Assembly (NCBI GenBank): GCA_028554795.2
Contig: CM068830.1
Location: forward strand, 46,452,227-46,516,226
Direction of reading: 5' to 3'
Origin: Sinohyriopsis cumingii
Taxonomy: Eukaryota > Mollusca > Bivalvia > Unionida > Unionidae
DNA length: 64,000 nt
Below, piece after piece: positions 28,570-48,656 of the stretch. Position 1 is the stretch's first letter. Each line of letters begins with the position of its first letter. Below the pieces are notes generated by a model, which did no database searches, was not told the DNA's origin, and saw nothing but the letters and a program-made list of their open reading frames with translations. The translations under genes and the position numbers were made by a program.

Positions 28570-28611
28570 TTCTCTTTTCGAGAAATATGGGTGGCCCTGA
28601 AAAGGGCCTTT
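28570..28611 (-). terminator. Histone-type 3' stem-loop and downstream box (left end gene)
   Basis: On the minus strand: GGCCCT-TTTC-AGGGCC (28593-28608), then ACCCA-like sequence and a CGAAAAGAGA box 13 nt beyond the stem. It lies 24 nt after the stop of the minus-strand gene at 28633. The stem size, tetraloop, flank and purine box match replication-dependent histone mRNA 3' ends (SLBP stem-loop plus U7-binding element). Confidence 0.75.
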
Positions 28612-28632
28612 GGGTTTATGTTAATGTATTCA

Positions 28633-28866
28633 TTAACATAAAGGGCACCGCATTGGTCTTCTTCTTGTCCTTAGGCTGCGTCTCACTGTTGGCCCGTAAA
28701 TCAGCACTCTTTTCAGGCATTCTTGTCTTTCAACGTAGATCCTACGTATCCACAGGCTGGTGTTTGTCCTGTGGACAACGGTCCACTTGGACCGGACATA
28801 CATGAGCATGTCCGTCCTAAACATCATGGAAGACACAAGGGTGGATGATTCAACTGTGGTCCACAT
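28633..28866 (-). CDS. Small terminal gene, unknown function (77 aa)
   Basis: Reads outward towards the left end. Support comes from its transcription signals rather than its sequence: a TATAAATA box on the minus strand at 28911-28918 sits about 45 nt upstream of the ATG, and the histone-type stem-loop follows the stop by 24 nt, exactly as in the other end genes. The product is basic and rich in Arg, Thr, Val and Met (ends RSLRTRRRPMRCPLC), with no domain I recognise. Overlapping plus-strand frames lack these signals. The TATA box of the oppositely transcribed gene at 29086 is about 110 nt away, so the two share a divergent promoter. It could also be a non-coding transcript with a chance ORF. 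Confidence 0.5.
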   Translation of the reverse strand: MWTTVESSTLVSSMMFRTDMLMYVRSKWTVVHRTNTSLWIRRIYVERQECLKRVLIYGPTVRRSLRTRRRPMRCPLC

Positions 28867-29085
28867 CTTGAAGCGACGAGAACAGGTGAATCAATGCAGT
28901 GAACTGCGCTTATTTATAGGTAGAGGAAGGATTGAAACGGATTGAGTTCATTCACCAATCCGAACACGCGTTACAAAATTCAGTCAGCCCACATCCAATC
29001 CGAAGAGAGCAGTCTGTGACGTCACGTGGTCTATATAGATTCGCTAGTGCTTGTGTACAGTCAATCTATGCGACAGTGATTCAAC
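28867..29085. promoter_or_regulatory. Divergent promoter with CRE and CCAAT-like motifs
   Basis: Contains TATAAATA for the minus-strand gene (28911-28918) and TATATAG for the plus-strand gene (29032-29038). A palindromic CRE (TGACGTCA, 29017-29024) overlaps an ACGTGG E-box-like site just upstream of the plus TATA. Three CAATCC/ATTGG-type motifs lie between them. A related CACGTGACGT sequence survives at the matching place in the relic element (about 61657-61667). Confidence 0.65.
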
Positions 29086-29664
29086 ATGACGGAAATTCAG
29101 AAAACGTTCCATTGGGGTGTAACAGCAGGGGAGACTGCCCAAGGGAACCCGGACTTACTTTCAGAAGAGGTGAATTGGGATTTTGTGGATTTTCTCTCCT
29201 CGCAAGAATTTGTTCCGGAACCTTCGTTACCTTCTTCATTACCGCAAGTGGAGAATTTTAGACAGAGACAGAAAGAAGAATTGGAGAAATTTATACAACG
29301 ACAAAAGGAAGCGGAACAAGCTTTTCTCCTACAGCAACAGCAGCAAGAAGAAGAGGTAAGAAAAAAACAACAGCAACAACAGCAAGAAGAAGTAGCAGCA
29401 AAGAAACAAGAGGGTGAAAATCAAACGGTCACGGTACTGTTGGACATTTTAGCAGAGTTAAGAAGTCTGAAACAAATGTATCAGACTTCTTTATTACGAC
29501 CGAAGAGAATACGACCTTCCCGAGCTAAACACGTCAACCCTGTGACTAAGCCTACCGTACCACCCTTAGTGATTTCAACCCAATCATCATCATCAACATT
29601 ACGCAGTCCAGAAGTAGGCCTTGGCCGTGGCAAAGGCTTAAGGCAGTTAACGTTGATTGCTTAA
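29086..29664 (+). CDS. Gln/Glu-rich coiled-coil protein (192 aa)
   Basis: The N-terminal 60 residues are mixed and acidic. Residues about 60-115 are a long charged, Gln-rich coiled coil with two poly-Gln runs. A second helical segment (VTVLLDILAELRSLKQMY) follows, then a basic Pro/Ser-rich tail ending near GLGRGKGLRQL. No enzymatic domain is visible. The helix and tail are well conserved in the relic element (minus strand, 61060-61299), while the Gln-rich part drifts, so the C-terminal half is probably the functional core. It has its own TATA box and ends 25 nt before a histone-type stem-loop. A role as a regulatory or scaffolding accessory protein is a guess. Confidence 0.75.
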   Translation: MTEIQKTFHWGVTAGETAQGNPDLLSEEVNWDFVDFLSSQEFVPEPSLPSSLPQVENFRQRQKEELEKFIQRQKEAEQAFLLQQQQQEEEVRKKQQQQQQEEVAAKKQEGENQTVTVLLDILAELRSLKQMYQTSLLRPKRIRPSRAKHVNPVTKPTVPPLVISTQSSSSTLRSPEVGLGRGKGLRQLTLIA

Positions 29665-29686
29665 ACTCACCCCTACACCAAAATAA

Positions 29687-29729
29687 AAAGGCCCTTTTCA
29701 GGGCCACCCACATTTCTCGAAAAGAAATA
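29687..29729 (+). terminator. Histone-type 3' stem-loop and downstream box (Gln-rich gene)
   Basis: AAGGCCCTTTTCAGGGCC (stem-loop 29690-29705) is followed by ACCCA, then AAAAGAAATA at 29720, 14 nt past the stem. This is the closest match in the window to a canonical histone mRNA 3' end. An AATAAA at 29682-29687 sits immediately before it. Confidence 0.8.
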
Positions 29730-29965
29730 CAATTTCAATTTGCCAATAACTCAAAAAAAAAAAAAAAAAAAAAACCACCCATTTTACCCTTATAGTACGT
29801 GTCTGTGTATGAGTGCGTGAGTGTAGCTTCTTATTTTAAAATCACAACTCAAAGACACTTACCTTGTATCATTAATTTATTCTTTTATCCATTGTTACAA
29901 TCCAATTCACAATTCACAACAGAACACTTTAATTAAAAGTTCATTGACTTCGTCTGTCTCTTTGT
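29730..29965. other. Convergent intergenic region with A-run and minus-strand poly(A) signal
   Basis: Holds an A-run of about 22 (29753-29774) and, on the minus strand, AATAAA near 29876-29881. That hexamer lies about 85 nt after the zinc-knuckle gene's stop, so the gene appears to use ordinary polyadenylation, unlike its neighbour. Confidence 0.6.
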
Positions 29966-30484
29966 TTAGTCTCTCTGTTTTTTGAATTTTTTCACCGTCA
30001 CACTCTTTTCCTCTTCTTCTTCCTCCTCCTCGCTTTCTTCCCTTCTTCTTTTTTTCTCCTGTTTCTTTTTCTTCACCTGTCTTCTTTCTTCCTCAGAAGA
30101 ATCCCTCTCTTCCTCTGAAGAATCCCTCTCTTCCTCTGAAGAATCCCTCTCTTCCTCTGAAGAATCGCTCTCTTCTTCTGAAGAATTCCTCTTTTCTTCT
30201 GATTCCTCTTGTTTCTTTTTTGGGCAATCTGGAGACCAATGTCCTTTTTCTTTACAATAATAACAGGTATCTTGACTTTTGTTTTTTTTAGTCCCTGTTT
30301 TTTTTCTTTTTTGACGGTCTGGACACTCTGATGACCAATGCCCTTTCTTCTGACAGATATAGCAAGTATCTTGACTTTTATCTCGAAAGGAAGGAGAGTA
30401 GTCCGTGGGCTGGTCTGAAGAGAATTTTCTAATGACCCCTCGCAAAGCTCTGACGAAACGTTCGATTTGGTTAGTCTCTTCCAT
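29966..30484 (-). CDS. Two-zinc-knuckle protein with Ser/Glu repeats (172 aa)
   Basis: Start chosen at 30484, not the in-frame ATG at 30532: the latter lies within 10 nt of the TATATAAAA box (30539-30547), and the relic homolog also begins at this internal Met. An N-terminal helix (IERFVRALRGVIRKF) is followed by two CCHC knuckles, CYICQKKGHWSSEC and CYYCKEKGHWSPDC, as in Gag-type and CNBP nucleic-acid binders. Next come four or five copies of DSSEEER, a strong casein-kinase-2-like pattern, and a Lys/Glu-rich basic tail that could hold a nuclear signal. Binding of single-stranded DNA or RNA, tuned by phosphorylation, is inferred. It shares a divergent promoter with PolB. Confidence 0.85.
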   Translation of the reverse strand: MEETNQIERFVRALRGVIRKFSSDQPTDYSPSFRDKSQDTCYICQKKGHWSSECPDRQKRKKTGTKKNKSQDTCYYCKEKGHWSPDCPKKKQEESEEKRNSSEEESDSSEEERDSSEEERDSSEEERDSSEEERRQVKKKKQEKKRRREESEEEEEEEEKSVTVKKFKKQRD

Positions 30485-30538
30485 CGTTGTGCTCGGCTTG
30501 AGAGTGAAATGAATAGTGAAACGACAAGACACACACCC

Positions 30539-30573
30539 TTTTATATACGCTGGTCTGCCATGACTATAAATTA
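30539..30573. promoter_or_regulatory. Divergent TATA boxes for zinc-knuckle and PolB genes
   Basis: TATATAAAA on the minus strand (30539-30547) and TATAAATTA on the plus strand (30565-30573) are about 18 nt apart, each about 50-55 nt from its ATG. The relic keeps the first (60727-60735), while the second is degraded. Confidence 0.7.
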
Positions 30574-30618
30574 GTCTATGGTGTTTAAACTTGAGTCATT
30601 TGACGTTTTGCACTCAAG

Positions 30619-33600
30619 ATGAAACGATCCTATTTATTCGAGAAGAAAGAAGAAGAAGAAAGTAAGAGGCAGAAACGTGATCTATCGCCTCGAACCAGGG
30701 CTGAAATCTTGGCACAAATTCATGCCAGTGATTTTGAAGAGGACATGAGTGAACCAGAATCCGAACCCTCTAAACCAAGTTCACCACCCTTAGTTAACCC
30801 TGAAAAGTACTATTCCATTCGAGAGACGGAAAAGCGCTCCTCTAGAAAATTTAGAACCACGGCTTACAAATACACGGTGAAGTTTAAAGATTTCAAGGCT
30901 GAAGTGCCGTTAGAGAAAGCAGAAGTGTTTATCACTGGGGTGTGGGATTCTTTGCTCACTGCACTCAAGCGACAATGTCAACCCAAAGAAGACGATCGCT
31001 TGAGACTTTCCATACAACACGACGGTTTGAAATCCCCTGTTTGGATCGAGTTTAGCACCCCTGCAGAATTGACCGCTTCCAAAGTCATGGACAAGATTCA
31101 ACACGTACAACAATCTAATGACCAGTTTGACATCACCGATGGAAAAGCCACACTGGACATGACCCACGTCTCTCCTCCTCAAGGGACTGGACGCAAAAAG
31201 ATATTGGTGGACGACCTTCGCAGCACCAAAAAGAGTCTCGTCCGAATTAACAACCCTCAGGACCAGATGTGTTTAGCTCGAGCCATCGTGGTGGGACGAA
31301 CCTATGCCAACAAGAACGACACGGCAGAATGGAAAAGAGCCTGGAAAACTATTCGACAATCGGACCGAGCCAAACAACGAAACGAAGCAGAACTCCTGTT
31401 GCAACAAGCTGGCCTGTCCAAAGACACACCCTGTGGCATTCCTGAAATGCAAAAATCGCAAGATGTCCTAGCTCCACGCTACACCTTGGAAGTGCACCCT
31501 CAAGAAGTGCGCGGGCCTCTGTTGTTTCGAGGCCAAGATTTTAAGGACGGAAAATACATTCATGTTTATTATCACGATGACCATTTCGATACCATTACCA
31601 CTATCACCGGATTCCTGGGATATGTTTATTATTGTGAGAAATGTGATTATGGTTATAATAATCGAGAGCAACACAAGCATTGTGGATTGAAATGCTCAGG
31701 ATGTTTGGCCTCTTCACCCTGTCTGAGCGAAGAACCAGTGCCTTGTTCAACTTGTTTGCGCACGTTTGTCAGCCCTACCTGTTACCAACAACATCTGAAA
31801 ACACAAGGTTCACAGAAGAAATGTGCTTGTCAACTCCTGAGATTGTGCCCTACGTGTGGACAAGGCATACGTACCAATAGTACCAAGGCACAAGTATGTT
31901 CAGGAAAAAAAAATGTCACATTTGTCATCACATCGTGGACTTGAAACACCAATGCTACGTGCAAAAATACCAACCCCCACCAGAGAAAGAGGATGGTCAC
32001 AAGAAGAAAAGCAATTTCATCTTTTTCGATTTCGAATGCATGCAAGAGACTGGCATTCACATTCCTAATTTCTGCGTGGCTCATCGAGCGTGCGAGAAGT
32101 GCATTCAAGAACCTATCTTCAGTCATTGCCCTCACTGCAGCAAGATTCCTGGAGGACGTGAAAAAATCTTTCGGGGACCGAGCACGCGAGCCGATTTCGC
32201 TCGATGGGTCTTAGACCCCATCGACAAGACGTGGAGCCAAGAGGACATCGAACGTTACGGAGATTGTCATCGTCATGCCACGGTGATGGCTCACAATTTT
32301 TCCGGATACGATGGACAGTTTCTTCTCAGATACTATACGGAACATGGCACCGAACGTCCTAAAGTGACTTTGAACGGAGCCAAAATCATTTTCATGCAAG
32401 TGGGACAAGTGCAGTTTAAAGATTCGATGAGTTACTTGGCCATGCCTTTGAGTCGAATGCCTAAAACGTTTGGAATGACAGAAATGGCTAAAGGGTACTT
32501 TCCATACTTTTTCAATACGGAAGCCAATCAACATGCCGTTCTACCCCATTTACCTGAAGCTCACTATTACGACCCCGACAACATGCGTACCGAACAACGA
32601 GAAGCTTTCTACGCTTGGTACCAGGCTCACGCCTCGGACCCCTTCGACTTTCAGGAAGAAATGCTAAAGTATTGTCGTTCCGACGTGGACATTTTACGGC
32701 GTTGCTGTGGAAAATATCGAGAACTGTTCATGGAACACGGAGGGGTCGATCCTTTGAAAGAAGCTTGCACCATTGCCAAAGCGTGTTCCTTAGTGGATCG
32801 ACAACGATTCATGCCTGAAAAGACTGTGGCTGTCATCAGTCCTCAAACGACCCACTATGTCAAGCGTCAATACTCGGTCAAAGCCCTACGTTGGTTACAT
32901 TACTTGTGCGACAAGGAAGACAAGTGGATTCAGCATGCCCGCAACGGAGGGGGTGAAAAGACCATCGGAACGTATTCGGTCGATGGCTGGGACTTAGAAA
33001 ACCCCAAGATCGTGTACGAGTTTAACGGTTGCTTATTTCACGGATGTCCCGTCTGTTACCCTGACCGTGGCACTAAAAATCAGTTTTTACAACGAACCAT
33101 GGAAGACCTGTACCAGGACACTTGTCAATGGCGCCTAAAGTTAGAACAGCAAGGATACCAAGTGGTGGAAATGTGGGAACACGAGTACGATCACCGAATG
33201 AAAACCGATCCCGAGTTTAAACGCCTCGTGGAAAGTTACCAGTTCATGGACCCGTTGAACCCGAGGGATAGTTTGTACGGAGGAAGGACCAATGCCACCT
33301 GTTTGCTGTACCAAGCCGACGAAGAGAAAGGAGAAGAAATCAAATACTTGGACGTGTGTTCGCTGTATCCCTACGTGTGCAAATATTGTCGCTTTCCTGT
33401 AGGGCACCCGCAATTGCCGACGGAACACATCGACCTGAAAAACATTCGACAATACGAAGGCTTGATCAAGTGTAAAGTTTTGCCTCCCACGAACCTATAC
33501 CATCCCGTCTTACCTCACCATTGTCAAGGCAAACTGATGTTTCCCTTGTGCCGTACTTGTGCCGAAACGTGCAACCAAGACCAGCCTTGTCAGCACACCC

Positions 33601-34655
33601 AGGAAGAACGTGCCTTGACGGGAACCTGGGTCAGCGTAGAATTGTTCAAAGCTCTGGACATGGGATACCAACTGTTAGAAGTGTACGAAATTTGCCACTT
33701 TCCCAAGACACAACAATACCACAAGGGTGACCCCAGTCAGAAAGGCATTTTCGCCGACTACGTGGATGCCTTTTTGAAACTGAAACAAGAAGCTAGCGGC
33801 TATCCTTCCTGGTGTCACACTCCCGAAGACCAAATACAATTCAAAGAGAAATACTATGAACAAGAAGGCATCTCTTTAGACCACATCGAAAAAAACGAAG
33901 GCAGGCGATCGTTTGCCAAAGTGATGTTAAATTGCTTGTGGGGTAAAATGGCACAACGACCGTGTTTACCCAAGACGGAATATTTGACACAACCTTCCCG
34001 CTACTTCCAGATGGTTCACGACAAAACCAAATACATGAAATACGTGGACGTCGTTCGAGAGAATTTGATCTTGGTCAATTACGAAGAAGATTTGGACTTT
34101 GTACAAGACGACCCTTTTGGAAATGTCATCATTGCGGCTTACGTGACAGTTCATGCTCGCTTAAAATTGTACGAAGCTTTAGAACTGTTAGGGGAACGCG
34201 TCCTGTACTTTGACACGGACAGTTGCATTTACATCCATCACCCGATTCAACATCACCCTGACATCGAAGGAGACCGTTTAGGAGCCTGGACAGACGAGCA
34301 TCCCGACGACAAGATTCTAAGTTTCGTCAGTGGTGGTCCCAAAAATTACGGCTACGAATACCGGGACAAACAAGGAGAAGTGCACACGACGTGCAAAGTA
34401 AAAGGACTGACTCTGAATTATCGTACCAGTCGAGTGGTCAATTTTGGGGTATTGAAAGAAGCCTTGCAATCGGGACAGGATGGAAACTTTAAAGTGACCA
34501 CCTATCAACCGAACAAGATTGTACGTTTACCCACTCATCACATCGTCAGTCGGCCCTTGGAAAAAGTCTATCAAATCGTGTACCAGAAGCGAGTGCGACT
34601 TCCCAATCATTTCACCTTACCGTATGGACACGTTGGTATAAAACATTGGTTGTAA
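30619..34655 (+). CDS. polB: Protein-primed family B DNA polymerase (frame break at A-run)
   Basis: Two overlapping frames (30619-31944 and 31896-34655) together span about 1,340 codons, normal for Polinton PolB. The N-terminal 430 residues hold a charged leader and a Cys-rich zinc-binding stretch (CEKCDYGYN...C..C). The second frame has Exo I (FFDFE, about 32028), Exo II (NFSGYD, about 32300), Exo III (YCRSDVD, about 32672), an EFNGCLFHGC segment typical of Polinton polymerases, YGGRT, motif A (DVCSLYP, about 33350), motif B (KVMLNCLWG, about 33918) and motif C (YFDTDS, about 34208). The frames meet at an A9 run (31905-31913). The relic copy is continuous at this point, so a one-base loss or an assembly error is more likely than programmed slippage. 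It replicates the element using a protein primer. Confidence 0.93.
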
Positions 34656-34679: not shown

Positions 34680-35138
34680 ATGACTTCGCCACAGCAAGAA
34701 TCGAGTGAGAAACCCGATGAGAACTCCAAGTTCAAACCCTACCATTTTCCAGTCTTCTTACCTGACTATTGTGATTGTGCCCGTCGATTGGACACGTTTC
34801 AGAAATGGCCTACGGATAGGGAAGGATTACCTTCTTCGCATGTTTTAGCTAGAACAGGATTTGTCTACTTGGAACCTGAGTCAGGATTGGGATACGAGGT
34901 ACAGTGTTTCGCTTGCGGAGTGAAGTTACGAATGGATCTATGTATCTATAAAGATTCAGCTATTCTGGAACATACTCGATGGTCTCCGCACTGCCCTTAC
35001 CTTTCTATGGTCTTTCCACCCATCACACTACGGTACAATGTTGACGGTACCTTAGAGACGGTACCTTCCAGAACAGGACATAAAAAACGTAAAAAAGGAA
35101 AGATGTACAAGCTGGAGACTGCATTGCGACTAGTATAA
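34680..35138 (+). CDS. BIR-domain (IAP-like) protein 1, 152 aa
   Basis: One baculovirus IAP repeat covers about residues 33-110: RRLDTFQKWP, then LARTGFVYL, and the zinc ligands C76, C79, H98 and C105 (CFACG, EHTRWSPHC). The tail is basic (KKRKKGK). There is no RING or second BIR, so it resembles short viral IAPs rather than full cellular ones. BIR proteins bind caspases or IAP antagonists and block apoptosis, and a role in keeping the host cell alive during replication is inferred. The Trp usual after the CxxC is replaced, so binding specificity may differ. It starts 25 nt after PolB and may be co-transcribed with it. Confidence 0.85.
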   Translation: MTSPQQESSEKPDENSKFKPYHFPVFLPDYCDCARRLDTFQKWPTDREGLPSSHVLARTGFVYLEPESGLGYEVQCFACGVKLRMDLCIYKDSAILEHTRWSPHCPYLSMVFPPITLRYNVDGTLETVPSRTGHKKRKKGKMYKLETALRLV

Positions 35139-35523: not shown

Positions 35524-35820
35524 ATGTCACTCAACCCTCATCGAAACGAACCTGTGAAAGACGAATATTCGTTCCCTGTGCGTTTGTCGGAATACTGCGA
35601 CTTTGAAAATCGTCTTCAATCGTTCAATGGAAAATGGCCTAAGTATCTGGGAGGACCGACCCCCGAAGAAGCCAGAGCCGGATTTTTCTACTTGGGCGAA
35701 GGAGATAAAGTCAAGTGCTTCAGTTGCGGTGTGTCACTTCACCACTGGGAACCGCAAGATTCGGCCTACGTTGAACATGCTCGATGGTCACCGAATTGTC
35801 ATTACTTACCCTTAGTGTGA
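35524..35820 (+). CDS. BIR-domain (IAP-like) protein 2, 98 aa
   Basis: Almost the whole protein is one BIR: NRLQSFNGKWP, then ARAGFFYLGEGDKVKCFSCG and EHARWSPNC. The predicted zinc ligands are C65, C68, H85 and C92. It keeps the HHW after the CxxC that BIR 1 lacks, so it is closer to the family consensus. No RING. It is similar in layout but clearly diverged from BIR 1, so the pair is not a fresh duplication. I see no TATA box close upstream. It may be read from the promoter at 35134. Confidence 0.85.
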   Translation: MSLNPHRNEPVKDEYSFPVRLSEYCDFENRLQSFNGKWPKYLGGPTPEEARAGFFYLGEGDKVKCFSCGVSLHHWEPQDSAYVEHARWSPNCHYLPLV

Positions 35821-35854: not shown

Positions 35855-36310
35855 ATGGATACTTTACAAGAGAACATTCGTGCTTTGCCTGTGGAGTTGA
35901 GAGAACGCATTTACCGAGACCTGGTCAAAATACAAGTGAAACGTAAAGAACAATTGCATCCGTTACGTCACCGGTGTTTGAACCACTGGTACCTGAAGGC
36001 TATACAAGGATTGATTCAATTGAAAGTGTTCCATCGGACAGACATTGATCAACGATCCTCTAGTTTTAAAAAGGATTGGTTTGTTATGGACGATTCTACC
36101 TACATCATTGTAAACTTACTGCATCGAATTCCAGAGGAAGAGTTAACGAATTACCAACATCTTGAACACAATGTCAACTTAGTGAAAGAGGAAACTTCTG
36201 AACGAATTGTAATGTGCAAATTAGTAACTAAACGATTTAAATTCGACACTGAAGTAAAACCATGTTTGTGCAAACAGTACATTTCTTGTGTCAGACCAAA
36301 GAGGATTTAG
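35855..36310 (+). CDS. F-box-like family protein, copy 1 (151 aa)
   Basis: First of three tandem paralogs, all opening with MDTLxENI and LPxELRERIYRxLVKIQVKR. This LPxELRxRIY pattern resembles an F-box-like helix set (SCF ubiquitin ligase adaptor); the match is by eye and weak. The rest (NHWYLKAIQGLI; LLHRIPEEELTNYQHL) has no domain I know. If F-box-like, it could redirect host protein degradation. It begins 34 nt after BIR 2. Confidence 0.7.
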   Translation: MDTLQENIRALPVELRERIYRDLVKIQVKRKEQLHPLRHRCLNHWYLKAIQGLIQLKVFHRTDIDQRSSSFKKDWFVMDDSTYIIVNLLHRIPEEELTNYQHLEHNVNLVKEETSERIVMCKLVTKRFKFDTEVKPCLCKQYISCVRPKRI

Positions 36311-36322
36311 TATGACCTATTC

Positions 36323-36595
36323 ATGGATACTTTGCTAGAGAACATTCGTGCTTTGCCTGTGGAGTTGAGAGAACGCATTTACCGAGAACTGATCAAAATA
36401 CAAGTGAAACGCAAACTCAAAGTGATTCATCCGTTTTTAAATTATGCTCTGTTCCAAAGTACAAGAAGACTGATTATGAGTGGATATTACATTAGGCACA
36501 AAGTTAAACGAGGCTATTGGCCACCACCCAACGATTCCAAAAACAGTGTATATACTTATGGATACTTTACAAGAGAACATTTTGGGCTTGCCTGA
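36323..36595 (+). CDS. F-box-like family protein, copy 2 (truncated, 90 aa)
   Basis: The N-terminal 35 residues are near-identical to copy 1, then it diverges and is cut off by overlap with the start of copy 3 in another frame. Probably a partial tandem duplicate. Starts 12 nt after copy 1. Confidence 0.55.
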   Translation: MDTLLENIRALPVELRERIYRELIKIQVKRKLKVIHPFLNYALFQSTRRLIMSGYYIRHKVKRGYWPPPNDSKNSVYTYGYFTREHFGLA

Positions 36596-37055
36596 GGAGT
36601 TGAGAGAAAGGATTTACCGAGAGCTGGTGAAAATACAAGTGAAACGTAAAGAACAATTGCATCCGTTACGTCACCAGATCTTTAACCACTGGTACCTGAA
36701 TGGTATAAGAGGACTGATTCGTCAGAAATTTTTTCAGTGGTCAGACCTTGTTGAACACTTTCAGTTTGGGGATGATGATGGACTAGACGCTCGTAATTTT
36801 GGTTACTTCGAGATTCACTTACTGCAACGTATTGAGGAAGACGAGTTAAAGGATTACCAACATTTGTTACATGGAATCTGCTTAGAAAAAGACGAAACAT
36901 CTAGACAAACTCTGACGTTTCAGTTACAGTATGTAACATTTAAATTCCCTACTGGAGAACGAACATGTTTGGTTAGAAATTACCTTTATTGCTTCCGAAA
37001 CAAAGACACTATAAAATCAAGTTGCCATGCCACGGATTATGTCACATATTATTGA
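36558..37055 (+). CDS. F-box-like family protein, copy 3 (165 aa)
   Basis: Start placed at 36558, where the conserved MDTLQENI begins, rather than the upstream in-frame Met at 36480. It aligns with copy 1 along its full length (LPEELRERIYRELVKIQVKR; HQIFNHWYLNGIRGLI; LLQRIEEDELKDYQHL). The C-terminus runs past the family's end into the next gene's leader. It carries an acidic insert (GDDDGLD). Confidence 0.7.
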   Translation: MDTLQENILGLPEELRERIYRELVKIQVKRKEQLHPLRHQIFNHWYLNGIRGLIRQKFFQWSDLVEHFQFGDDDGLDARNFGYFEIHLLQRIEEDELKDYQHLLHGICLEKDETSRQTLTFQLQYVTFKFPTGERTCLVRNYLYCFRNKDTIKSSCHATDYVTYY

Positions 37056-37250: not shown

Positions 37251-37751
37251 ATGGTCACGAAAAACTCCTTTTGCTCAAAGGCTTGCGTTTTCATCTGGAT
37301 ACTTCTCGACCTCAACAGGAAAAAAAGATTCGTCAACTTTTAGCTACCCAAGACGTGTATGACGATGTGTGTGTAGCTTGTGACTTACATCCCCATTGGA
37401 CAGATGTCCGTGCTTGGAAAGAATGGGGTTTTGAGGCTTGGACCCAAGAAGTGGCCCAGTATGCACGAGAGTTGTTCAAGGAAAAAAGTTACTTTTCAAC
37501 CCGTGTTAGTGACGGTGCCAGAAGAACCCGTCACCCAGGACGGGACTGTCGTGGACAGGCCTGAAAGACCCTTTCGGGAGGACACTTGTGTGATCTTACC
37601 CCCTACTATAGAACTGGTTAGAACATTACCCAAAACATGTTGTTGTACAGACACTTGTTTTTATTCCACGTTAATGGTTATCATGTGCCTTTTATCCTTG
37701 TACTTAAGCCTTTGGCTTTTATGTATTTTTGTCTTTCGTATTCATGTTTGA
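37241..37751 (+). CDS. Putative tail-anchored protein, frame break in A-run
   Basis: The ATG at 37241 opens a frame with acidic/aromatic content (VYDDVCVACDLHPHW; EWGFEAWTQEVAQYARELF). A one-base shift in the A6 run at 37482-37487 leads into the frame that ends at 37751. The C-terminal 30 residues are a strong hydrophobic helix (STLMVIMCLLSLYLSLWLLC) with a short basic tail, as in tail-anchored proteins. An AATAAA follows at 37765-37770. Neighbouring BIR genes make an apoptosis or membrane role tempting, but no family is identified. Confidence 0.5.
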
Positions 37752-37764
37752 AAAAAAAACATTC

Positions 37765-37770
37765 AATAAA
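37765..37770 (+). terminator. Poly(A) signal before the ATPase gene
   Basis: AATAAA, 14 nt after the stop of the tail-anchored ORF and 16 nt before the ATPase TATA box. Confidence 0.6.
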
Positions 37771-37785
37771 CGTGTGCTGAAAAAG

Positions 37786-37794
37786 TATATAAAA
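37786..37794 (+). promoter_or_regulatory. TATA box of the packaging ATPase
   Basis: TATATAAAA, about 50 nt upstream of the ATG at 37840. Confidence 0.7.
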
Positions 37795-37839
37795 TCTTGT
37801 CTTGTTTGTTTTCGTGTCACAAGTGACATTTCTCACACA

Positions 37840-38583
37840 ATGGCTACCTCTGCTGTCTCTGCTCCCTCTTCCTCTACTGTCAAAGTCATCGACGAACACT
37901 TAGATCGTGCCAGTTGGGAGGCTTTGTATCTTCGCCATCCCTTTAACATGCTCATTGCTGGACCTAGCGGTTCAGGCAAAACAAAATTCGTCAAACGTTT
38001 GATCGAACATAAACATCATTTGATCGATCGGCCACCTCAACGGATCGTGTGGTGTTACAAAGAGTGGCAATCGGCGTACAACCTCTTGCGAGAAAGTCAA
38101 GGCGATTCCATCGTGTTTGTGGAAGGCATTCCTAAAGAAGACGACAGCATCGTCTCTGACTCCTGTCAAACCCATTTGGTCATTTTCGACGACATGTTAG
38201 GAGAAGACGAAGAAGAAATTAAATTGTGGTTCACGCGCAAAGGGCATCACCGTAATGCCAGTGTCGTTTACATCACCCAAAATTTGTTTCAACAAAGTAA
38301 AGCCCATCGCACCATCAGTCTCAATGCGCATTACGTGGTCTTGTTTAAAAGCCCTCGAGATAAATCGCAAGTGCAAGTCTTAGCCAAACAGTTAGGAACG
38401 CCTTGGCTGACTCAGGCGTACGACGATGCCACTCAAACACCACACGCCTATTTACTCGTTGATTTGAAACCTACGACTCCCGAGGATTTGCGATTTCGTA
38501 CCCACTTGTTTCACCACTGGTGCCAAGACGGAGGGCCTGTCCTGTACACGTCTCCGTCCTCGACTTCATTTCACTCCACATAA
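37840..38583 (+). CDS. FtsK/HerA-type (A32-like) genome-packaging ATPase
   Basis: 247 aa. Walker A is GPSGSGKT at residues 41-48. Walker B is THLVIFDDML with DD at 117-118. A downstream VVYITQNLF segment fits the sensor strand of this family. Such ATPases pump the linear genome into the capsid, and their presence with capsid genes is the hallmark of virus-like Polintons. Start chosen at 37840 because it follows the TATA box by about 50 nt; the frame is open further upstream. Intact. Confidence 0.92.
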   Translation: MATSAVSAPSSSTVKVIDEHLDRASWEALYLRHPFNMLIAGPSGSGKTKFVKRLIEHKHHLIDRPPQRIVWCYKEWQSAYNLLRESQGDSIVFVEGIPKEDDSIVSDSCQTHLVIFDDMLGEDEEEIKLWFTRKGHHRNASVVYITQNLFQQSKAHRTISLNAHYVVLFKSPRDKSQVQVLAKQLGTPWLTQAYDDATQTPHAYLLVDLKPTTPEDLRFRTHLFHHWCQDGGPVLYTSPSSTSFHST

Positions 38584-40732: not shown

Positions 40733-42034
40733 ATGGAAAAAGTCTTAGCCAGCATTTACTACGATCCCTCTCATCCTGCAGGTTACGCAGGAGTTCAAAA
40801 ATTGTATCGTGCTGCCAAAACGCGACTGAAAAGTCTCCGTTTACCTCAAGTGCAACGATGGTTACAAGAACAAGCTACCTACACTTTACACAAACCCATT
40901 CGACGCAAGTTTTTCAGAAGTCGCATCCGAGTGGAAGGCATCGATCATCAATGGCAAGCCGATTTAGCCGATGTCTCTCATTTGGCCAGCTACAATCGTG
41001 GCTACAAATATTTGTTTTGTGTCATCGACGTCTTTTCCAAATTTGCCTGGGTCGTGCCCTTGACTTCCAAATCGAGCAGCGAGTTAGTGCGAGCCCTGCA
41101 ACGGGTGTTGAAACAAAGTGGTCTTCACCCTCTTCGATGGCAAACGGACAAAGGCACCGAATTTCTGAACCAAGCTTTCCAAAAAGAATTAAAGAAACGT
41201 GACATTCATTTTTTTACCACCGAGAATCCCGAAACCAAAGCCAGCATCGTGGAACGTTTTCAACGCACTTTGAAAGAACGCATGTGGAAATATTTTACGT
41301 ATCACCACACTCTGAAGTACATTGACATCTTACCGCACCTGGTGCAAGCGTACAACCAATCTTACCATCGAAGCATTGGACGTGCCCCGCAAGACGTGAC
41401 TCCCGACAACGAAGTGCTGGTGTTTGAGCGTCTGTTTGGTACGTCCCCGACGAGGGCTGTCCCTAAGAAAAGTGGAATGTTGGCCGTAGGAGATTGGGTG
41501 CGCATTGGCAAAACCAAACGCACTTTTGACAAAGGTTACTTACCTAACTGGACGACCGAACTGTTTCGTGTCACTGGACGAGTGCATGGCCGTCATCCTA
41601 CCGTCTATAAATTGGAAGACATAAACGGAGAAGTGCTCAAAGGAACGTTTTATTTGCCCGAGTTACAACGTGTCACCAAAAAAGAAGACGACGTGTACGA
41701 CATCGAAAGCATTCTCGAACGCAGAACCCGTAAAGTGGGCAAACGACGTGTCAAAGAAGTCAAAGTACGTTGGAAAGGATATCCACCCAGTTTTGATTCT
41801 TGGATCGACGCTTCGCAAGTCATCGACTATAAAAAGAAGTGGCCATCATGCCCTTTCACACAGCAGACGCAGCTACGTCGACCACTCCTCCTTCACCTAG
41901 TTCTTCTGTGCAAGATTTACAAAAACAACCCTTGTGGGTGTGGTGTGGAGAACGTGTGCCTAAAACGCAAATCGTCTTTTTCTGCCAAATCTTCGTGGTG
42001 TATTGTGTCATCGGGGCAGCCATTGCCAATTTGA
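40733..42034 (+). CDS. int: Retroviral-type integrase with chromodomain
   Basis: The RVE core is complete: D77 (WQADLAD), D139 (WQTDKGTEF) and E174 (SIVERF), a DD-34/35-E spacing. An N-terminal helical region precedes it, and an SH3-like DNA-binding part (GDWVRIGK) follows. A chromodomain occupies about residues 321-366 (YDIESILERR; VRWKGYPPSFDSWI). Chromodomains target insertion to chromatin marks in Polintons and chromoviruses. It joins the element ends to host DNA, giving the 6-bp duplication seen here. The frame runs about 190 nt into the next gene. The true C-terminus may be soon after the chromodomain. Catalytically intact. Confidence 0.94.
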   Translation: MEKVLASIYYDPSHPAGYAGVQKLYRAAKTRLKSLRLPQVQRWLQEQATYTLHKPIRRKFFRSRIRVEGIDHQWQADLADVSHLASYNRGYKYLFCVIDVFSKFAWVVPLTSKSSSELVRALQRVLKQSGLHPLRWQTDKGTEFLNQAFQKELKKRDIHFFTTENPETKASIVERFQRTLKERMWKYFTYHHTLKYIDILPHLVQAYNQSYHRSIGRAPQDVTPDNEVLVFERLFGTSPTRAVPKKSGMLAVGDWVRIGKTKRTFDKGYLPNWTTELFRVTGRVHGRHPTVYKLEDINGEVLKGTFYLPELQRVTKKEDDVYDIESILERRTRKVGKRRVKEVKVRWKGYPPSFDSWIDASQVIDYKKKWPSCPFTQQTQLRRPLLLHLVLLCKIYKNNPCGCGVENVCLKRKSSFSAKSSWCIVSSGQPLPI

Positions 42035-43187: not shown

Positions 43188-43604
43188 ATGTATCCAGTGT
43201 ACCGAGGGGTTGCTCGACAGCGAGGACACGGTTTAGGAGATATGTTAAAATCGGCCTTTCGTTCGGTGGCCCCGGTGTTGAAACCGATGGTGACACGCGG
43301 ATTGCACGCCTTGAAAGATGCGGCACTGACGCAAGGCAAAGAATTTCTCCAAAATGTCATCATCGACAAACAAAACCCTAAAGAAGCCTTCATGAGGGCA
43401 GGCAAAAATGTCTTGCTGCAAACGGGCAAAGACATTTTAGGCCGACGAGACACACCTATAAATGCCCTGCACGCTACCGAGTCAGGCATTCAGCAAGGAC
43501 AAGGCAGAAAGAGACGACGAAGAAAACACCCTTTCACCAGACTTCAAGCTAGAAAGGCCAAGAAAAGAAGAACCGTTCGAGACTTAGACGTTTTCGATTA
43601 TTGA
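43188..43604 (+). CDS. pVI/pX-like basic virion protein (138 aa)
   Basis: Opens MYPVYRGVARQRGHGLGDML, followed by an amphipathic helix region (FRSVAPVLKPMV) and a C-terminal cluster of Arg/Lys (RKRRRRK; KAKKRR) that would serve as nuclear or DNA-binding signal. This small protein between penton and major capsid is conserved in Polintons and compared with adenovirus pVI/pX. It may help DNA packing or membrane disruption. Intact. A TATAAAAGG box lies about 95 nt upstream inside the penton gene. Confidence 0.75.
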   Translation: MYPVYRGVARQRGHGLGDMLKSAFRSVAPVLKPMVTRGLHALKDAALTQGKEFLQNVIIDKQNPKEAFMRAGKNVLLQTGKDILGRRDTPINALHATESGIQQGQGRKRRRRKHPFTRLQARKAKKRRTVRDLDVFDY

Positions 43605-43620
43605 GAAAGAACAAAAAAAA

Positions 43621-44934
43621 ATGATGCACCGAGAGTCTTGCGCTTGTTCCAAGTCGGAACTGGATCTGTTTGCCATGCCCCCCACCATGATGACCATGCA
43701 AGAATCCCAGTGGGTGGAATTTCACCCCGTCTCCTCTTTGACGGATTCCGCTCCCATCGAGTTTGAAATCAAAGGACAGCCCGAAGATTACATCGATCTG
43801 AATAGCAGTTACTTGTACCTGAAAGTCAAAATTCTAGATAAGACTGGAGGTGCTATAGACGATGAAGCAGTAGCTCCCGTCAACAATTTCATGCATTCCT
43901 TGTTCAGTGGAGTGGACTTGTACTTGAATAACAAACTGGTCAGTAGCAGCATGGATACTTACCCTTATCGTGCCTACCTGGAAAATCTCTTGACGTACGG
44001 AATAGATGCCAAGAACACTCATCTCAATGCCTGTGTGGTATGGGAAGCTGACGAACCTACCAAGTTTGAAATATTGGAAACTGATGAAAAGAAAGACAAC
44101 AATGATGGATTTGTAGAACGAAGAAAGAAAATCACGGGAGTCGACACAAGTTTAGAACTGATGGATCGTTTGCATTTGGACATGTGGTTGCAAGAAAAGT
44201 ATTTGCTGAACGGGGTGGATGTCCGCCTGAGACTGAATCGTAGCAGTACCGCTTTCCATTTATTGGCTGATAGTGACGGTTACAAAACCAAAATCCAAGA
44301 AGCCAGACTCTACGTACGCCGTGTGGAAGTGTTACCTAAAGTGGGAAACGACATCAGTCAGACGTTGAGCAGAACGACCGCCAAGTATCCCATACGACGC
44401 GTGGAAGTGAAAACCTTCACTATTCCCAAGGGACAGCGATCCATGATCGAAGATCATCTGTTCCAAGGACAGTTACCCAAACGTTTGATCGTTGGTATCG
44501 TCGAGAATACAGCCTTCAACGGAGCTGCCGAAAAAAGTACTTTCTACTTTCAACACTTTGGCGTGTCCAAAATCGAAGTCAGTCGCGATGGCAAGACCTT
44601 GTGTAACCGACCTTTCGAACCTGACTTTACCAAGAAGAATTACTTGAGATCGTACTTGTCCCTGTAGGAAGCCACCGGACAGTTAGGAACCAATACCAGT
44701 CACGGTATTACGTACGAGGATTATGCAGGAGGCTACGCTTTGTGGGCTTTTGATTTCACTCCAGACCAAGGCAGCGACGAGAGACATTTCCACCCTATAA
44801 AATCCGGCCAGATTCGTGTGGAAATTCAGTTTAAAGACCGAGACCCTGATGAAACGGTGAACGTCATCCTGTATGCAGAATTCGATAATACGATAGAAAT
44901 CAACAGTTTGAGAGAAGTCATCCTAGATTACTAG
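43621..44934 (+). CDS. mcp: Major capsid protein, double jelly-roll (in-frame TAG)
   Basis: The frame is open from 43621 to a TAG at 44665-44667 (348 codons), then continues in the same frame to the stop at 44934, about 436 residues in all, the usual Polinton length. Recognisable segments are PIEFEIKGQPEDYIDL, YLYLKVKI, VNNFMHSLFSGVDLYLN, then DMWLQEKYLLNGVDV and, after the TAG, GYALWAFDFTPD and YAEFDN. It would form the pseudo-hexameric capsid lattice. The TAG removes the last 89 residues unless read through, or is an error. Confidence 0.88.
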
Positions 44935-44939
44935 AAACC

Positions 44940-45417
44940 ATGGAAGACTATTGTCCCTCTTTACCTAGTGGAGAAACTTTGGACATGAAATGTGAGGAGA
45001 CTGTGGAAGAAGAAGTGATCATGATGAAGTCGAGATGGCCAGAACAAGAAGCCCATTTAGTCTCCTGTTTTGCCAAACACTTGGTCGAAAAAATGACGGA
45101 ATTGATCAAGAAAAATTGCTATGGATGTCAAAACGATCATCCCAGTCAAATTCAACACGATAAATGCCTGATGTTGAGTCAAGAAGAAATTGGACGAGTA
45201 TCTGGACGAAGCTTGGAGTCTCATCTCGGACGAAGACGTGTTGCACCAGTGGTATAAAGACTTGCGTGAACATTCTTGTCCACCATTAACCACTCAAGAG
45301 ATCCATCGTATCGAAGCTCTCCTGAATCAGAGTGAGGAGACGAAACGAAGAAACGGTTACTTGTCAGACATTTTCAAGCAAAAAGTCAGGATCGAATTGA
45401 CGACTTATTACCTGTGA
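44940..45417 (+). CDS. Cys-motif Polinton protein, frame break
   Basis: First frame 44940-45257, acidic N-terminus then NCYGCQNDHPSQIQHDKCLM, a CxxC...HPSQxxH..C signature I associate with a small gene beside the protease in animal Polintons. The family's next part (LDEYLDEAWSLIS; YLSDIFKQKV) is in the second frame (45190-45417). The shift is one extra base at or near the AAA at 45187-45189. Zinc binding is likely from the motif; function unknown. Confidence 0.7.
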
Positions 45418-45434
45418 AGAAAAAAAACACACAA

Positions 45435-46001
45435 ATGGATACCTGGGAACTTTATTACCTTTTGAACCACAGTTCGTATACGGCTTCTTGGAATCCTGTC
45501 GTCTGTGCTAAAGATGAACTCCCTCATCGCAAACCTAAAGACCATCAAACTTACGTGATCAACACGGACGACAGTCATCTCCCAGGAACCCACTGGGTAG
45601 CCGTTTACTTTCCTCAAGAAGGATGTGTGGAATATTTCGATTCGTACGGAGTGCCACTTTTGGAAGACGATATCATTGACTTTATGAGAAGAAATGCTCA
45701 GACCACCCGATTCAATAATGTGAAATTACAAGGCACAGATTCCTTGGTGTGTGGACAATATTGTGTGTATTTTCTGCATCATCGCAGCCTGGGCTATTCC
45801 TTAGAACATTTAGTGACTCATTTTGATCCTCGTTCTTCTTCAAGAAATGATGTGAAAGTAGATCGATGGTTTTGTGACCATTATGCTTATCTTTTGTCTC
45901 AAGCTAGGAAACGTAGTGTCCATCAATGGCCTAATGACTTCCAACAGTGGAAATCACAATTTCATTCACAACGACAACGGTGTCAGCCTTGTTTAAAGTA
46001 G
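45435..46001 (+). CDS. Adenain-like cysteine protease (188 aa)
   Basis: Catalytic set as in adenovirus protease: H53 (GTHWVAVYF), D69 (EYFDSYG), Q99 (KLQGTD) and C106 (SLVCGQYC), with the Q-to-C spacing of seven as in adenain. Of the Ulp1-like C48/C5 clan. It would mature capsid proteins during assembly. The ATG at 45435 is preferred because the frame extends upstream only with non-ATG starts. Length is normal and the gene is intact. An AATAAA lies 115 nt after the stop. Confidence 0.92.
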   Translation: MDTWELYYLLNHSSYTASWNPVVCAKDELPHRKPKDHQTYVINTDDSHLPGTHWVAVYFPQEGCVEYFDSYGVPLLEDDIIDFMRRNAQTTRFNNVKLQGTDSLVCGQYCVYFLHHRSLGYSLEHLVTHFDPRSSSRNDVKVDRWFCDHYAYLLSQARKRSVHQWPNDFQQWKSQFHSQRQRCQPCLK

Positions 46002-46115
46002 ATTGTCAATTGAGAAAAAAAATTTGTTTGTGATTTGAAAAAAATTGTTTGATGTTATATTGTTGGATTATTGTTAAAAATGTTAGAGTTGTTGTTTAGT
46101 GTTAAGTGATTTTTG

Positions 46116-46121
46116 AATAAA
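46116..46121 (+). terminator. Poly(A) signal after the protease gene
   Basis: AATAAA in a T/G-rich stretch. Marks the end of the structural-gene block, before the coiled-coil genes that use stem-loop ends. Confidence 0.6.
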
Positions 46122-46237
46122 AATGTTGTGTTTTGAAAAAAATGCCTTTGTGGTTTGTTTAGCTATAAGAATGTTTGATTGATGCTCTTTCATTTCTTAC
46201 TATCCCTCTCATGAACGTTGCGGCTCGAAAACCGTGT

Positions 46238-46266
46238 GGGGGATGTTTTCCTTCACGTCCGCGCTT
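46238..46266 (+). promoter_or_regulatory. Repeated promoter box, copy 1
   Basis: GGGGATGTTTTCCTTCACGT followed by CCGCGC, about 65 nt before ATG 46331. The same box precedes the next two genes (47081, 47771, 47840). The CACGTCCGCG part is CRE/E2F-like. A TTTAAG takes the place of a TATA box. Confidence 0.75.
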
Positions 46267-46330
46267 TGACTTTAAGAACCGGGGTTGTTTCCAGTCTAAC
46301 CATCCATTGTCGACTCATCCTCCTACGAAG

Positions 46331-46675
46331 ATGTGCTCCAAACTAGCTAAACTCAACGAAGCCTACGTGAATTTGCATAGGGTCAGACACAGTCTGATAC
46401 CGAAGCCAGAAGAAATAGAGAATGTGAGAATGCTAAAAGTCACTGAAGACCTGATAGAAGAGCTCTTCAGAGAAGAAGTGAACAGGGAGAAAGAAGAATG
46501 GACGGAGAAGTACAGACTTCAGAGACAGCAGCAACAGCAGCAGCAGCAACCTGAACCTGACAGAGGCTTTGTCGATTGTCGTATCGACACCAAAGAGTTC
46601 TTCGTCTCTTTCCGAAGAAGCAGACCTATCGCCAGAAAGTCTATCCTCAGAGGACATCGCATTCTTAGAAACTAA
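46331..46675 (+). CDS. Charged coiled-coil protein, right-end gene 1 (114 aa)
   Basis: ATG 46331 is chosen because it follows the promoter box; the frame upstream has no ATG. A helical N-terminus (KLAKLNEAYVNLHRVRHSLI) leads into Glu/Arg/Lys-rich helix, a poly-Gln run of eight, and a Ser/Arg tail. Shares the short helical-repeat plan of the two genes after it. A degraded homolog is in the relic (56775-57140, minus). Ends 29 nt before a histone-type stem-loop. Function unknown. Confidence 0.7.
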   Translation: MCSKLAKLNEAYVNLHRVRHSLIPKPEEIENVRMLKVTEDLIEELFREEVNREKEEWTEKYRLQRQQQQQQQQPEPDRGFVDCRIDTKEFFVSFRRSRPIARKSILRGHRILRN

Positions 46676-46701
46676 AAAAAGATTGCCATAGCAAACAAAA
46701 A

Positions 46702-46743
46702 AACAGCCCTTTTCAGGGCTACCCAATACTCTAGAAAAGAAAT
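46702..46743 (+). terminator. Histone-type 3' stem-loop (right-end gene 1)
   Basis: AGCCCTTTTCAGGGCT (46705-46720), then ACCCA and a GAAAAGAAAT box 14 nt past the stem. The outer stem pair is A-T instead of G-C, keeping the pairing. Confidence 0.75.
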
Positions 46744-47080
46744 AACGATAAATTTGCCAATGTGTGTAGGTAGAGTAGTGTGAATATAAACACTAACTCT
46801 TTTTTAAAAAATGTGAGGGTATGTGTTTGTGTGTTTGTGTTTGTAAGTGCTCAAGTAAGTTGGTATGGATAGTAGATTAAAATAATGTCTTTTTTTGGGC
46901 GTTTGAGGTGTATATTTGTGGTTAGATTGGATTGCTTTGCGTATGTGGATAGTCTATTGAAGTGATTTATAAAAAAATTTTAAAATAGTGATGGGTAGCA
47001 TAAAAAAGTGAGTGAGTGTTTCTTTTAGGTCCGCGCGTTGTTTGGTCATGATCTAAGTAAGATCAATTTTATGTTTTTAG
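46744..47080 (+). other. GT-rich spacer with duplicated block
   Basis: Starts ATTTGCCAATGTGTG, GTAGGTAGAGTAGTGTGAAT and continues GT-rich. The same block follows the next stem-loop (47546-47770), so the whole transcription unit has been duplicated. Contains a partial promoter box (GGTCCGCGCG near 47029) and TCATGATCTAAGTAAGATCA, a near-palindrome. Confidence 0.6.
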
Positions 47081-47120
47081 GGGGATGTTTTCCTTCACGT
47101 TCGCGCTTTCACTATAAATT
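47081..47120 (+). promoter_or_regulatory. Repeated promoter box, copy 2, with TATA
   Basis: GGGGATGTTTTCCTTCACGT then TCGCGC, followed by CTATAAATT at 47112-47120. The ATG is at 47171. Confidence 0.8.
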
Positions 47121-47170
47121 GAAACTCGTTCGGCAGTCTAGCTACCCTTGTTGATTGATCAACACCAAAA

Positions 47171-47479
47171 ATGAATAGCAGAATAAGCAAACTTCTTGAA
47201 CTCCAGATACATCTGGAATATGTCAGGCGCCTGTTAAATGAACTGGCCGCGGAGGCTATAATAGAAGAGGAAAGAATAAAGAAGGAAGAGGAGGAGAGAA
47301 GACAGAGGGAAGAGGAGAAAAAGAAAATAGGAGAGAGGATGTCGTACAATATTCCCGAGACAGAGGATTGGGGTGTTGAAGCGAATCATCCTCCCTCTGC
47401 GCTCCCCAAAATAAAGGTGAAAGGAGACTGGGGAATAAGATGCGTGTGTGGCGCCAGGCCAGGAAGGTGCCATCATTAA
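47171..47479 (+). CDS. Charged coiled-coil protein, right-end gene 2 (102 aa)
   Basis: N-terminal amphipathic helix (RISKLLELQIHLEYVRRLLN) followed by an almost pure Glu/Lys/Arg helix, then a Trp/Pro loop and a Cys/His end (WGIRCVCGARPGRCHH) that could bind metal. Promoter box plus TATA upstream; histone-type stem-loop 27 nt after the stop. Both the helix and the Cys/His end are conserved in the relic (55583-56391, minus), which argues for selection on the protein. Function unknown. Confidence 0.75.
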   Translation: MNSRISKLLELQIHLEYVRRLLNELAAEAIIEEERIKKEEEERRQREEEKKKIGERMSYNIPETEDWGVEANHPPSALPKIKVKGDWGIRCVCGARPGRCHH

Positions 47480-47503
47480 ATAGGTGCATCTGGAGTTCAA
47501 AAA

Positions 47504-47545
47504 AACAGCCCTTTTAAGGGCTACCCAATACTCTAAAAAAGAAAT
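47504..47545 (+). terminator. Histone-type 3' stem-loop (right-end gene 2)
   Basis: AGCCCTTTTAAGGGCT (47507-47522), then ACCCA and a purine box (AAAAAAGAAAT) 13 nt beyond. The loop is TTTA, still within the histone loop variation. Confidence 0.7.
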
Positions 47546-47770
47546 AACCATCAATTTGCCAATGTGTAGGTAGAGTAGTGTGAATATAAACACTGATTCT
47601 TTTTTCATAGTGTGAGGGTATGTGTTTGTGTGTTTGTGTGTTTGTGTTTGTGTTTGTGATTGTAAGCGCTCACGTACGATTGTGTGGATAGTAAATTATG
47701 GATTTGTTTATTGTTTATTAGCGTATGTGGAGAGTATAGTTTGGGTTTTATTATATGAAATGAGAAAAGT
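47546..47770 (+). other. Second copy of the GT-rich spacer
   Basis: Matches 46744-46860 closely at its start (GTAGGTAGAGTAGTGTGAAT, ATATAAACACT, GTGAGGGTATGTGTTTGTG). No gene. Confidence 0.65.
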
Positions 47771-47877
47771 GGGGATGTTTTCCTTCACGTCCGCGCGTTG
47801 TTTGATCATGATCTAGGTAAGATCAATTTTTATGTCTTAGGGGATGTTTTCCATCACGTCCGCGCTTTTCGTATAAG
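47771..47877 (+). promoter_or_regulatory. Repeated promoter boxes, copies 3 and 4, with TATA-like site
   Basis: Two boxes at 47771-47796 and 47840-47866 flank TCATGATCTAGGTAAGATCA. A GTATAAG at about 47871 is TATA-like. The ATG is at 47928. Confidence 0.7.
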
Positions 47878-47927
47878 AATCCACAGTATTCGTCGTTCAA
47901 ACCATTCTGCAAAGAATAAAAAAGAAG

Positions 47928-48311
47928 ATGGCTTCGAACCACCTTGACAAAATGGAAAAATTGCAAAACGTCCTGGACAATTTAGGAATGATGGAGCAAA
48001 TGTTGGTTAACCTAAACGAGGATCACTATTCTTATAGTCCCCATCGAGTGAAGATGGAGATAAACAATTTACGAAAAATATAGGTAATCATCAGTGATCT
48101 GTTGAAAGAAATAAAGGAGGAGAAGGAGGATGAAGAGGAAAGGATAAGGATGAGAGCATGGAACGAAAAAATTGAAAAAGAAGAAGAAAATGAGAAGAGG
48201 AAGAAAGAAGAGGAGGAGAAGAAAGAAGAGGAGGAGAAAAGAAAGAAAGAAAAGAAGAGAAAAAGTGTAGGACAGAAAATTAGAAGCTGGTGGAGAAATA
48301 GAAGAAATTAG
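47928..48311 (+). pseudogene. Charged coiled-coil protein, right-end gene 3 (in-frame TAG)
   Basis: The ATG at 47928 opens a helical frame (HLDKMEKLQNVLDNLGMMEQ) that meets TAG at 48081-48083 and continues in the same frame to 48311 with a Glu/Lys/Arg helix and basic end (GQKIRSWWRNRRN). Same plan as right-end genes 1 and 2. As assembled it is a 51-residue peptide unless the TAG is read through. Ends 24 nt before the stem-loop in the right terminal repeat. Confidence 0.6.
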
Positions 48312-48330
48312 AAGAAGAAGAAGAAGAAAA

Positions 48331-48656
48331 CCAAAGGCCCTTTTCAGGGCCAGCCATATTTCTCGAAAAGAGAATGACTTTTCAATTGCCTACCCCTTTT
48401 TTAAATTTAAAAAATTTAAAAAAAAAAAATCCCATGTTCAATTCCCCTTGTCCCTAGACAAGCCCAAACTATATTCCCCATGTTAAATTTCCCTTGAGGC
48501 TAAAACGACCCAAGACTATTTCCCATGTTAAATTCCCCTTGAGGCTAAAACGACCCACGATTTTTCTCCATGTTATATTTCCATTGAGGCTAAAACGACC
48601 CAGGGGTGTTTTTAAAGCTAATTCCCATTGAGGCTAAAGTGACCCCATTCACTACT
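48331..48656. repeat. Right terminal inverted repeat
   Basis: 326 bp, reverse complement of 28284-28613. Ends CCCCATTCACTACT directly before TACAGG. Holds the mirror set of 45-bp subrepeats (about 48430-48630). Confidence 0.92.
48333..48373 (+). terminator. Histone-type 3' stem-loop at the inner edge of the right terminal repeat
   Basis: AAAGGCCCTTTTCAGGGCC (stem-loop 48336-48351), then AGCCA and CGAAAAGAGA 13 nt beyond. Mirror image of the block at 28570-28611. Confidence 0.75.

Follow-up and report, generated by a model that had tools for sequence, protein, structure and literature searches.

Can genes other than those of histones be given the 3' ends of replication-dependent histone mRNAs? 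This question is raised by a Polinton, a virus-like mobile element, in the genome of the bivalve Sinohyriopsis cumingii (assembly GCA_028554795.2, contig CM068830.1, positions 46,452,227 to 46,516,226; this whole stretch of 64,000 nucleotides (nt) is called the window, and positions below refer to it). The element (28284-48656) carries short, apparently intronless units at its two ends, genes A and B at the left and genes C, D and E at the right, and a preliminary description had claimed that each of them is followed by a stem-loop and a downstream box, with an ACCCA flank in the plus-strand internal copies. According to PMC6303110, the mRNAs of core histones are the sole protein-coding messages of animals to finish in a stem-loop and not in poly(A). 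The histone 3'-end layout claimed for the element was found to be recognised by Rfam, linked to genes, strand-specific and kept across copies; the signal is a familiar one in a setting of a new kind, and we consider it quite probable from sequence that the terminal accessory genes A-E end in working replication-dependent-histone 3' ends, which host SLBP and U7 would process.

Five stem-loops behind the terminal genes

All five stem-loops were located where they had been described, 24-29 nt past stop codons on the same strand, each of them 16 nt long with a stem of six pairs and a loop of four bases. Gene A (28633-28866, minus strand), which encodes a basic protein of 77 amino acids (aa), is followed by a histone-type 3' end at 28568-28613 (minus strand; stem-loop 28608-28593, ACCCA and a GAAAAGAGAA box; 40.8 bits, E 5.5e-9 with the Rfam model RF00032, Histone3, whose curated cut-off is 34 bits), and gene B (29086-29664, plus strand, 192 aa) by one at 29685-29729 (plus strand; stem-loop 29690-29705, ACCCA, GAAAAGAAAT; 41.2 bits, E 3.8e-9). 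At the right end, where all features lie on the plus strand, the open reading frame (ORF) of gene C (46211-46675), gene D (47171-47479, 102 aa, C-terminus CVCGARPGRCHH) and gene E (47928-48311, with a stop at 48083 in this copy and hence ORFs at 47928-48083 and 48150-48311) precede histone-type 3' ends at 46700-46745 (stem-loop 46705-46720, ACCCA, GAAAAGAAAT; 31.0 bits, E 2.5e-5), 47502-47547 (stem-loop 47507-47522 with a TTTA loop, ACCCA, AAAAAAGAAAT; 33.5 bits, E 2.8e-6) and 48331-48376 (stem-loop 48336-48351, AGCCA, GAAAAGAGAA; 33.9 bits, E 2e-6), respectively. ACCCA follows four of the five, the copy at 48336 having AGCCA, and the GAAAAG box is exact in four, the copy at 47507 departing from the description in both loop and box.

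A strict scan, requiring six pairs, histone base rules and a loop starting with TT, returned six stem-loops in the 64-kb window, of which five belong to the element and the sixth (55546-55531, minus strand) to a second Polinton remnant; the chance expectation, taken from 100 first-order Markov sequences of 64 kb, was 0.02 on average and at most 1 per sequence. When positions 26000-51000 were scanned with Rfam up to E 5, five Histone3 matches were obtained, all at genes A-E and none after the ORFs from polymerase to protease, together with three weak matches to other families. The stem-loops at 28608 (minus strand) and 48336 (plus strand) form a pair of copies, one at the inner edge of each terminal inverted repeat (arms 28515-28617 and 48327-48429, 95%), and those at 46705 and 47507 are tandem duplicates (94% over 70 nt), so that three lineages and not five independent cases are represented. 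The signals, their gene linkage, their orientation, their persistence across copies and the lack of a Histone3 match after the core genes are read from the sequence itself. Readings as bacterial terminators or as cruciforms were dismissed on the grounds of orientation and gene linkage.

Genes C, D and E have an upstream module in common, and the true start of gene C may be a later ATG near 46331, downstream of this module. The gene B protein has a conserved WDFVDFL near its N-terminus and a basic RPKRxRPSRAK stretch, and its predicted structure, of low confidence (mean predicted local distance difference test score 68.7), consists of one long helix at 53-136 with disordered ends. Contigs of 925-2286 bases yielded twenty relatives of gene B, the best with an identity of 96% and the remaining 19 with 59-69%; one relative was found for gene D. 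The Pfam scan, which covered genes B, C and D, returned no family for them, and none of five short histone motifs was present in the 68 loci of the element described below (68/68); judged by these two results, the terminal genes appear to encode no histone. At one of the loci (L004:936-1484, plus strand), a gene of 182 aa that is by eye unlike gene E precedes the right-repeat stem-loop, and the gene at this place may change while the histone-type end stays.

Copies of the signal across the host genome

The 2.9-Gb host genome (1138 contigs) was searched with Histone3, and the best 75 of 589472 candidates were scored. All 75 scored places are above the cut-off and all lie in copies of this Polinton (68/68 and 7/7), while among 14 control genomes a match was obtained in one (Lactococcus lactis) and above the cut-off in none. 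None of the 75 places is a histone end of the host itself, which has no bearing on the absence of such ends since only top candidates were scored.

In the 68 loci (L001-L068), 132 stem-loops were classed by similarity to the five contexts of the window, giving 49 of type A, 44 of type B, 22 of type E, 16 of type D and 1 of type C. The six pairs are intact in 119 of the 132 and ACCCA follows in 108, and the downstream stretch has AAAGAG in 97, AAAGAA in 26 and neither in 9 (one or other core in 123/132). The outer pair is G and C in most A, B and E copies and A and T in nearly all C and D copies; since the two letters change together, pairing is kept. Upstream of 95 of the 132, at no more than 60 nt and mostly at 18-27 nt, lies the end of a same-strand ORF with 60 aa or more, compared with 213 of 4000 random positions (for type A alone, an ORF of this size ends before 41 of 49); the end of an opposite-strand ORF lies near none of them (0/132). 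Such counts over copies show persistence, not independent origins.

As the loci had been found by stem-loop, only stem-loops that had not brought their own locus in bear on conservation, and conservation was computed from these alone. For gene A, where 16 copies were used and 14 excluded, the stem-loop is exact in 16 of 16, with a pairwise identity of 1.00 and rank 1 of 329 windows; the coding sequence is at 0.84, the stretch from stop to stem-loop at 0.85 and the box at 0.88. For gene B (25 kept, 19 left out), the stem-loop is at 0.947, ACCCA and the box are at 0.953 each and the coding sequence is at 0.90, with 0.82 for the untranslated region (UTR) before the stem-loop and 0.54 for the sequence 60-80 nt past the stem-loop start. 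The stem-loop of gene D (16 copies) has an identity of 0.918 to the window copy, compared with 0.81 for the coding sequence and 0.83 past the box, and of the two non-picked places found for gene E one has an exact stem-loop and one has none.

The second Polinton remnant in the window (55398-61489) is inverted and internally deleted, its positions 58183-61053 being 80.5% identical to 33092-30216; the stem-loop that it keeps at 55546-55531 is of the C/D type, and another is eroded near 56757.

Probable processing by the host and alternative readings

Judged from these data, the likeliest reading is that transcripts of A-E are processed by host SLBP and the U7 small nuclear ribonucleoprotein (snRNP). 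The transcript would fold into the 16-nt stem-loop and be bound there by host SLBP, the U7 snRNP of the host would base-pair with the purine box some 13 nt further on, and CPSF73 would cleave at a point between stem-loop and box, leaving an mRNA that ends in the stem-loop without poly(A). The export, translation and stability of such an mRNA would fall mainly in S phase, the time at which SLBP is available and the replicating element would need the products of A-E. Two stem-loops border the inner side of the inverted repeats, so that outward transcripts would stop short of the terminal DNA, the presumed starting point of replication. The use of SLBP and U7, the lack of poly(A), the S-phase timing and the benefit to the element are what we infer from the signals, whose function is well supported at the level of sequence.

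In mouse, according to PMC7026596, the core AAAGAG of the histone downstream element (HDE) pairs with CUCUUU of U7, and CPSF73 cleaves between the stem-loop and the HDE. Most copies of the element carry this core or AAAGAA as a candidate site of pairing with U7. A search of the host genome for U7 (65 of 801960 candidates scored) returned nothing, from which no conclusion follows, as 0 of the 14 control genomes matched either. Beyond the downstream box, at a distance of 7-8 nt, a CAATTTGCC/CAATTGCC stretch is also conserved (29736-29744 for gene B, with counterparts behind the other stem-loops), and one may speculate that the conserved CAATTTGCC extends the pairing with U7.

The 3' ends of A-E resemble those of replication-dependent histone mRNAs (RF00032; SLBP, U7 snRNP, CPSF73) in the stem-loop, the ACCCA, the purine box at about 13 nt and the short 3' UTR. 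The resemblance goes beyond the 3' end. Like histone genes, the terminal genes are short and apparently intronless, and histone gene pairs have a divergent promoter of comparable build, with TATA-like and CCAAT boxes; in the promoter region between the divergent genes A and B (28867-29085), motif matches alone indicate a TATA-like box ahead of each ATG (at 52 and 55 nt), two CCAAT boxes and a cyclic-AMP-response-element (CRE)/CACGTG motif. Unlike histone genes, the terminal genes lack the five histone motifs and belong to a mobile element. The signals behind the five genes suggest that the element borrows the host histone pathway and thereby times part of its expression to DNA replication. We also lean, with less assurance, towards a wider proposal, in which the terminal genes, probably early or regulatory ones, would depend on the host's pathway for histone mRNAs over their whole length, promoter and 3' end included, the left end imitating a divergent histone pair and expression being free of poly(A) and limited to replication; they would then be the first non-histone protein-coding gene set of animals found there.

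The genes might instead have dual 3' ends in the manner of H2A.X, with a stem-loop end in S phase and polyadenylated read-through besides, in which case they would not be confined to S phase. H2A.X is a published example of such ends (PMC7807067) and serves as the precedent, and ATTAAA is present 201 nt past the stop of gene C and 268 nt past that of gene B, these two genes being among the 4 of 21 plus-strand ORFs examined that have AATAAA or ATTAAA within 300 nt. No such signal lies within 300 nt after gene D, which is weak evidence to the contrary because only 4 of 21 ORFs have one; on the whole, we regard dual ends as unlikely. Less likely still is that the element picked up a histone 3' UTR a single time, which now sits in the inverted repeat and was multiplied by duplication while serving no use. 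Two copies do belong to the repeats and another two are a tandem pair, the downstream sequence has been copied along with the stem-loop, and the ACCCA of gene A (0.81) is kept no better than its coding sequence (0.84). An unused passenger, however, would not be expected to show an exact stem-loop in 16 of 16 non-picked A copies, changes of the outer pair that preserve pairing, or a stem-loop, ACCCA and box of gene B (0.95 each) that exceed both the preceding UTR and the sequence further on, and the gene B stem-loop lies outside the inverted repeat.

The position of two stem-loops at the inner edge of the repeats would also fit a function of the DNA itself, such as a cruciform, or a site bound by proteins, that serves replication, packaging or integration. 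We hold this to be very improbable, since the other three stem-loops lie further inside the element, each of the five stands behind a stop codon and is oriented as in the transcript, with 0 of 132 copies near an opposite-strand ORF end, and a DNA site needs neither ACCCA nor a purine box.

Several observations weigh against processing by host SLBP and U7. Three of the five stem-loops in the window are just below the Rfam cut-off (31.0-33.9 bits), two being above it. With a rank of 286 among 694 windows, the gene B stem-loop is on a par with coding sequence, and it is exact in only 16 of 25 copies; the ACCCA of gene A is, as said, no better kept than coding sequence; and the gene-B 3' region of the second remnant has lost its stem-loop. 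An AATAAA starts 8 nt upstream of stem-loop B, a motif search upstream of A-E did not find the E2F consensus, and TATA-like boxes are not special to A-E, as position 30619 has two of them in the 80 nt ahead of it and position 34680 has one. The set of 132 came from a scan that allowed up to 4 mismatches and kept only window-like contexts, so heavily decayed stem-loops are uncounted in it, and the copies share descent, which makes the counts non-independent, in loci that were selected by Histone3 score. Finally, Histone3 was absent at E 0.5 from 4 of 4 more distant Polinton contigs, all of them partial.

The element, its relatives and its other genes

The search with Histone3 was positive in all 75 scored places of the host genome and negative in the four distant partial contigs (L072-L075), from which the element differs in having terminal genes with histone-type 3' ends; a direct scan of the four contigs gave a single unconvincing G-U-rich stem, in L073. 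Histone-type ends may accordingly be confined to one Polinton lineage. L072-L075 occur in bacterial genome bins, with titles naming Escarpia and Bathymodiolus symbionts, Breoghania and Rickettsiaceae, which is probably contamination by animal DNA. In L073, the Polinton of the Bathymodiolus-symbiont bin, a weak twister-P1 ribozyme match (11731-11795, plus strand; 28.9 bits with a cut-off of 67.2, E 0.034) lies just past the capsid gene. Gene and alignment scans of the viral contig collection confirmed no relative; stem-loop pattern matches in three of its contigs, where the genes are phage-like and Rfam gave nothing at E 0.01, were taken as chance.

The preliminary description knew of no report of such ends in Polintons, and among the papers listed from the open-licence PMC literature we too found no account of them; in a 2024 adintovirus-related survey (PMC11071296), a term search did not find stem-loop or polyadenyl. 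Like the DNA viruses that encode histones (reviewed in PMC9145170), the virus-like Polinton would make use of the histone system; unlike them, it would borrow an RNA 3'-end signal and has no recognised histone gene. If the proposed processing is true, the histone 3'-end pathway can be borrowed by a virus-like mobile element for a gene set of its own, an integrated DNA element has a simple means to sense S phase, and transcripts of this kind escape poly(A)-selected RNA sequencing. The expression of Polintons, which is poorly known, becomes directly testable.

The element is a Polinton, as had been stated, and was delimited by inverted-repeat analysis and core genes between target-site duplications. 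It shares with Polinton/Maverick (adintovirus-like) elements a 6-bp duplication (TACAGG, read from the flanks at 28278-28283 and 48657-48662), terminal inverted repeats of about 330 bp (28287-28617, with the stem-loop of gene A at its inner edge, and 48327-48656, with that of gene E) and a set of core genes, all on the plus strand. These comprise a B-type DNA polymerase region (30619-34655) with two overlapping ORFs, 30619-31944 without a Pfam match and 31896-34655 with PF03175, an A32-like packaging ATPase (37744-38583, PF04665), an rve integrase with a chromodomain (40733-42034, PF00665 and PF00385) and an adenovirus-type protease (45435-46001), whose match to PF00770 is weak (16.7 bits, under the cut-off of 21.3). 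The ORF at 43621-44667 (348 aa, cut short, no Pfam match) we take, from the gene order of Polintons, to be the major capsid protein. It has 1387 relatives at E 0.001 or better, and the eukaryotic sources among the 120 listed are all bivalves (Mercenaria, Crassostrea, Ostrea and Saccostrea), which by itself points to a probable bivalve host; among the matches listed, the two closest relatives have 441 and 438 aa. The window copy is not intact, the polymerase being split over two overlapping ORFs, the capsid ORF short and gene E interrupted by an internal stop.

Other genes were also observed within the Polinton. A CCHC zinc-knuckle gene with an SSEEERD repeat (29966-30484, minus strand) adjoins gene B, and two BIR (inhibitor-of-apoptosis) genes are located at 34680-35138 and 35524-35820. 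Three tandem gene copies at 35855-37055 share the N-terminus MDTLxENIxxLPxELRERIYRxLxKIQVKRK, which resembles an F-box start.

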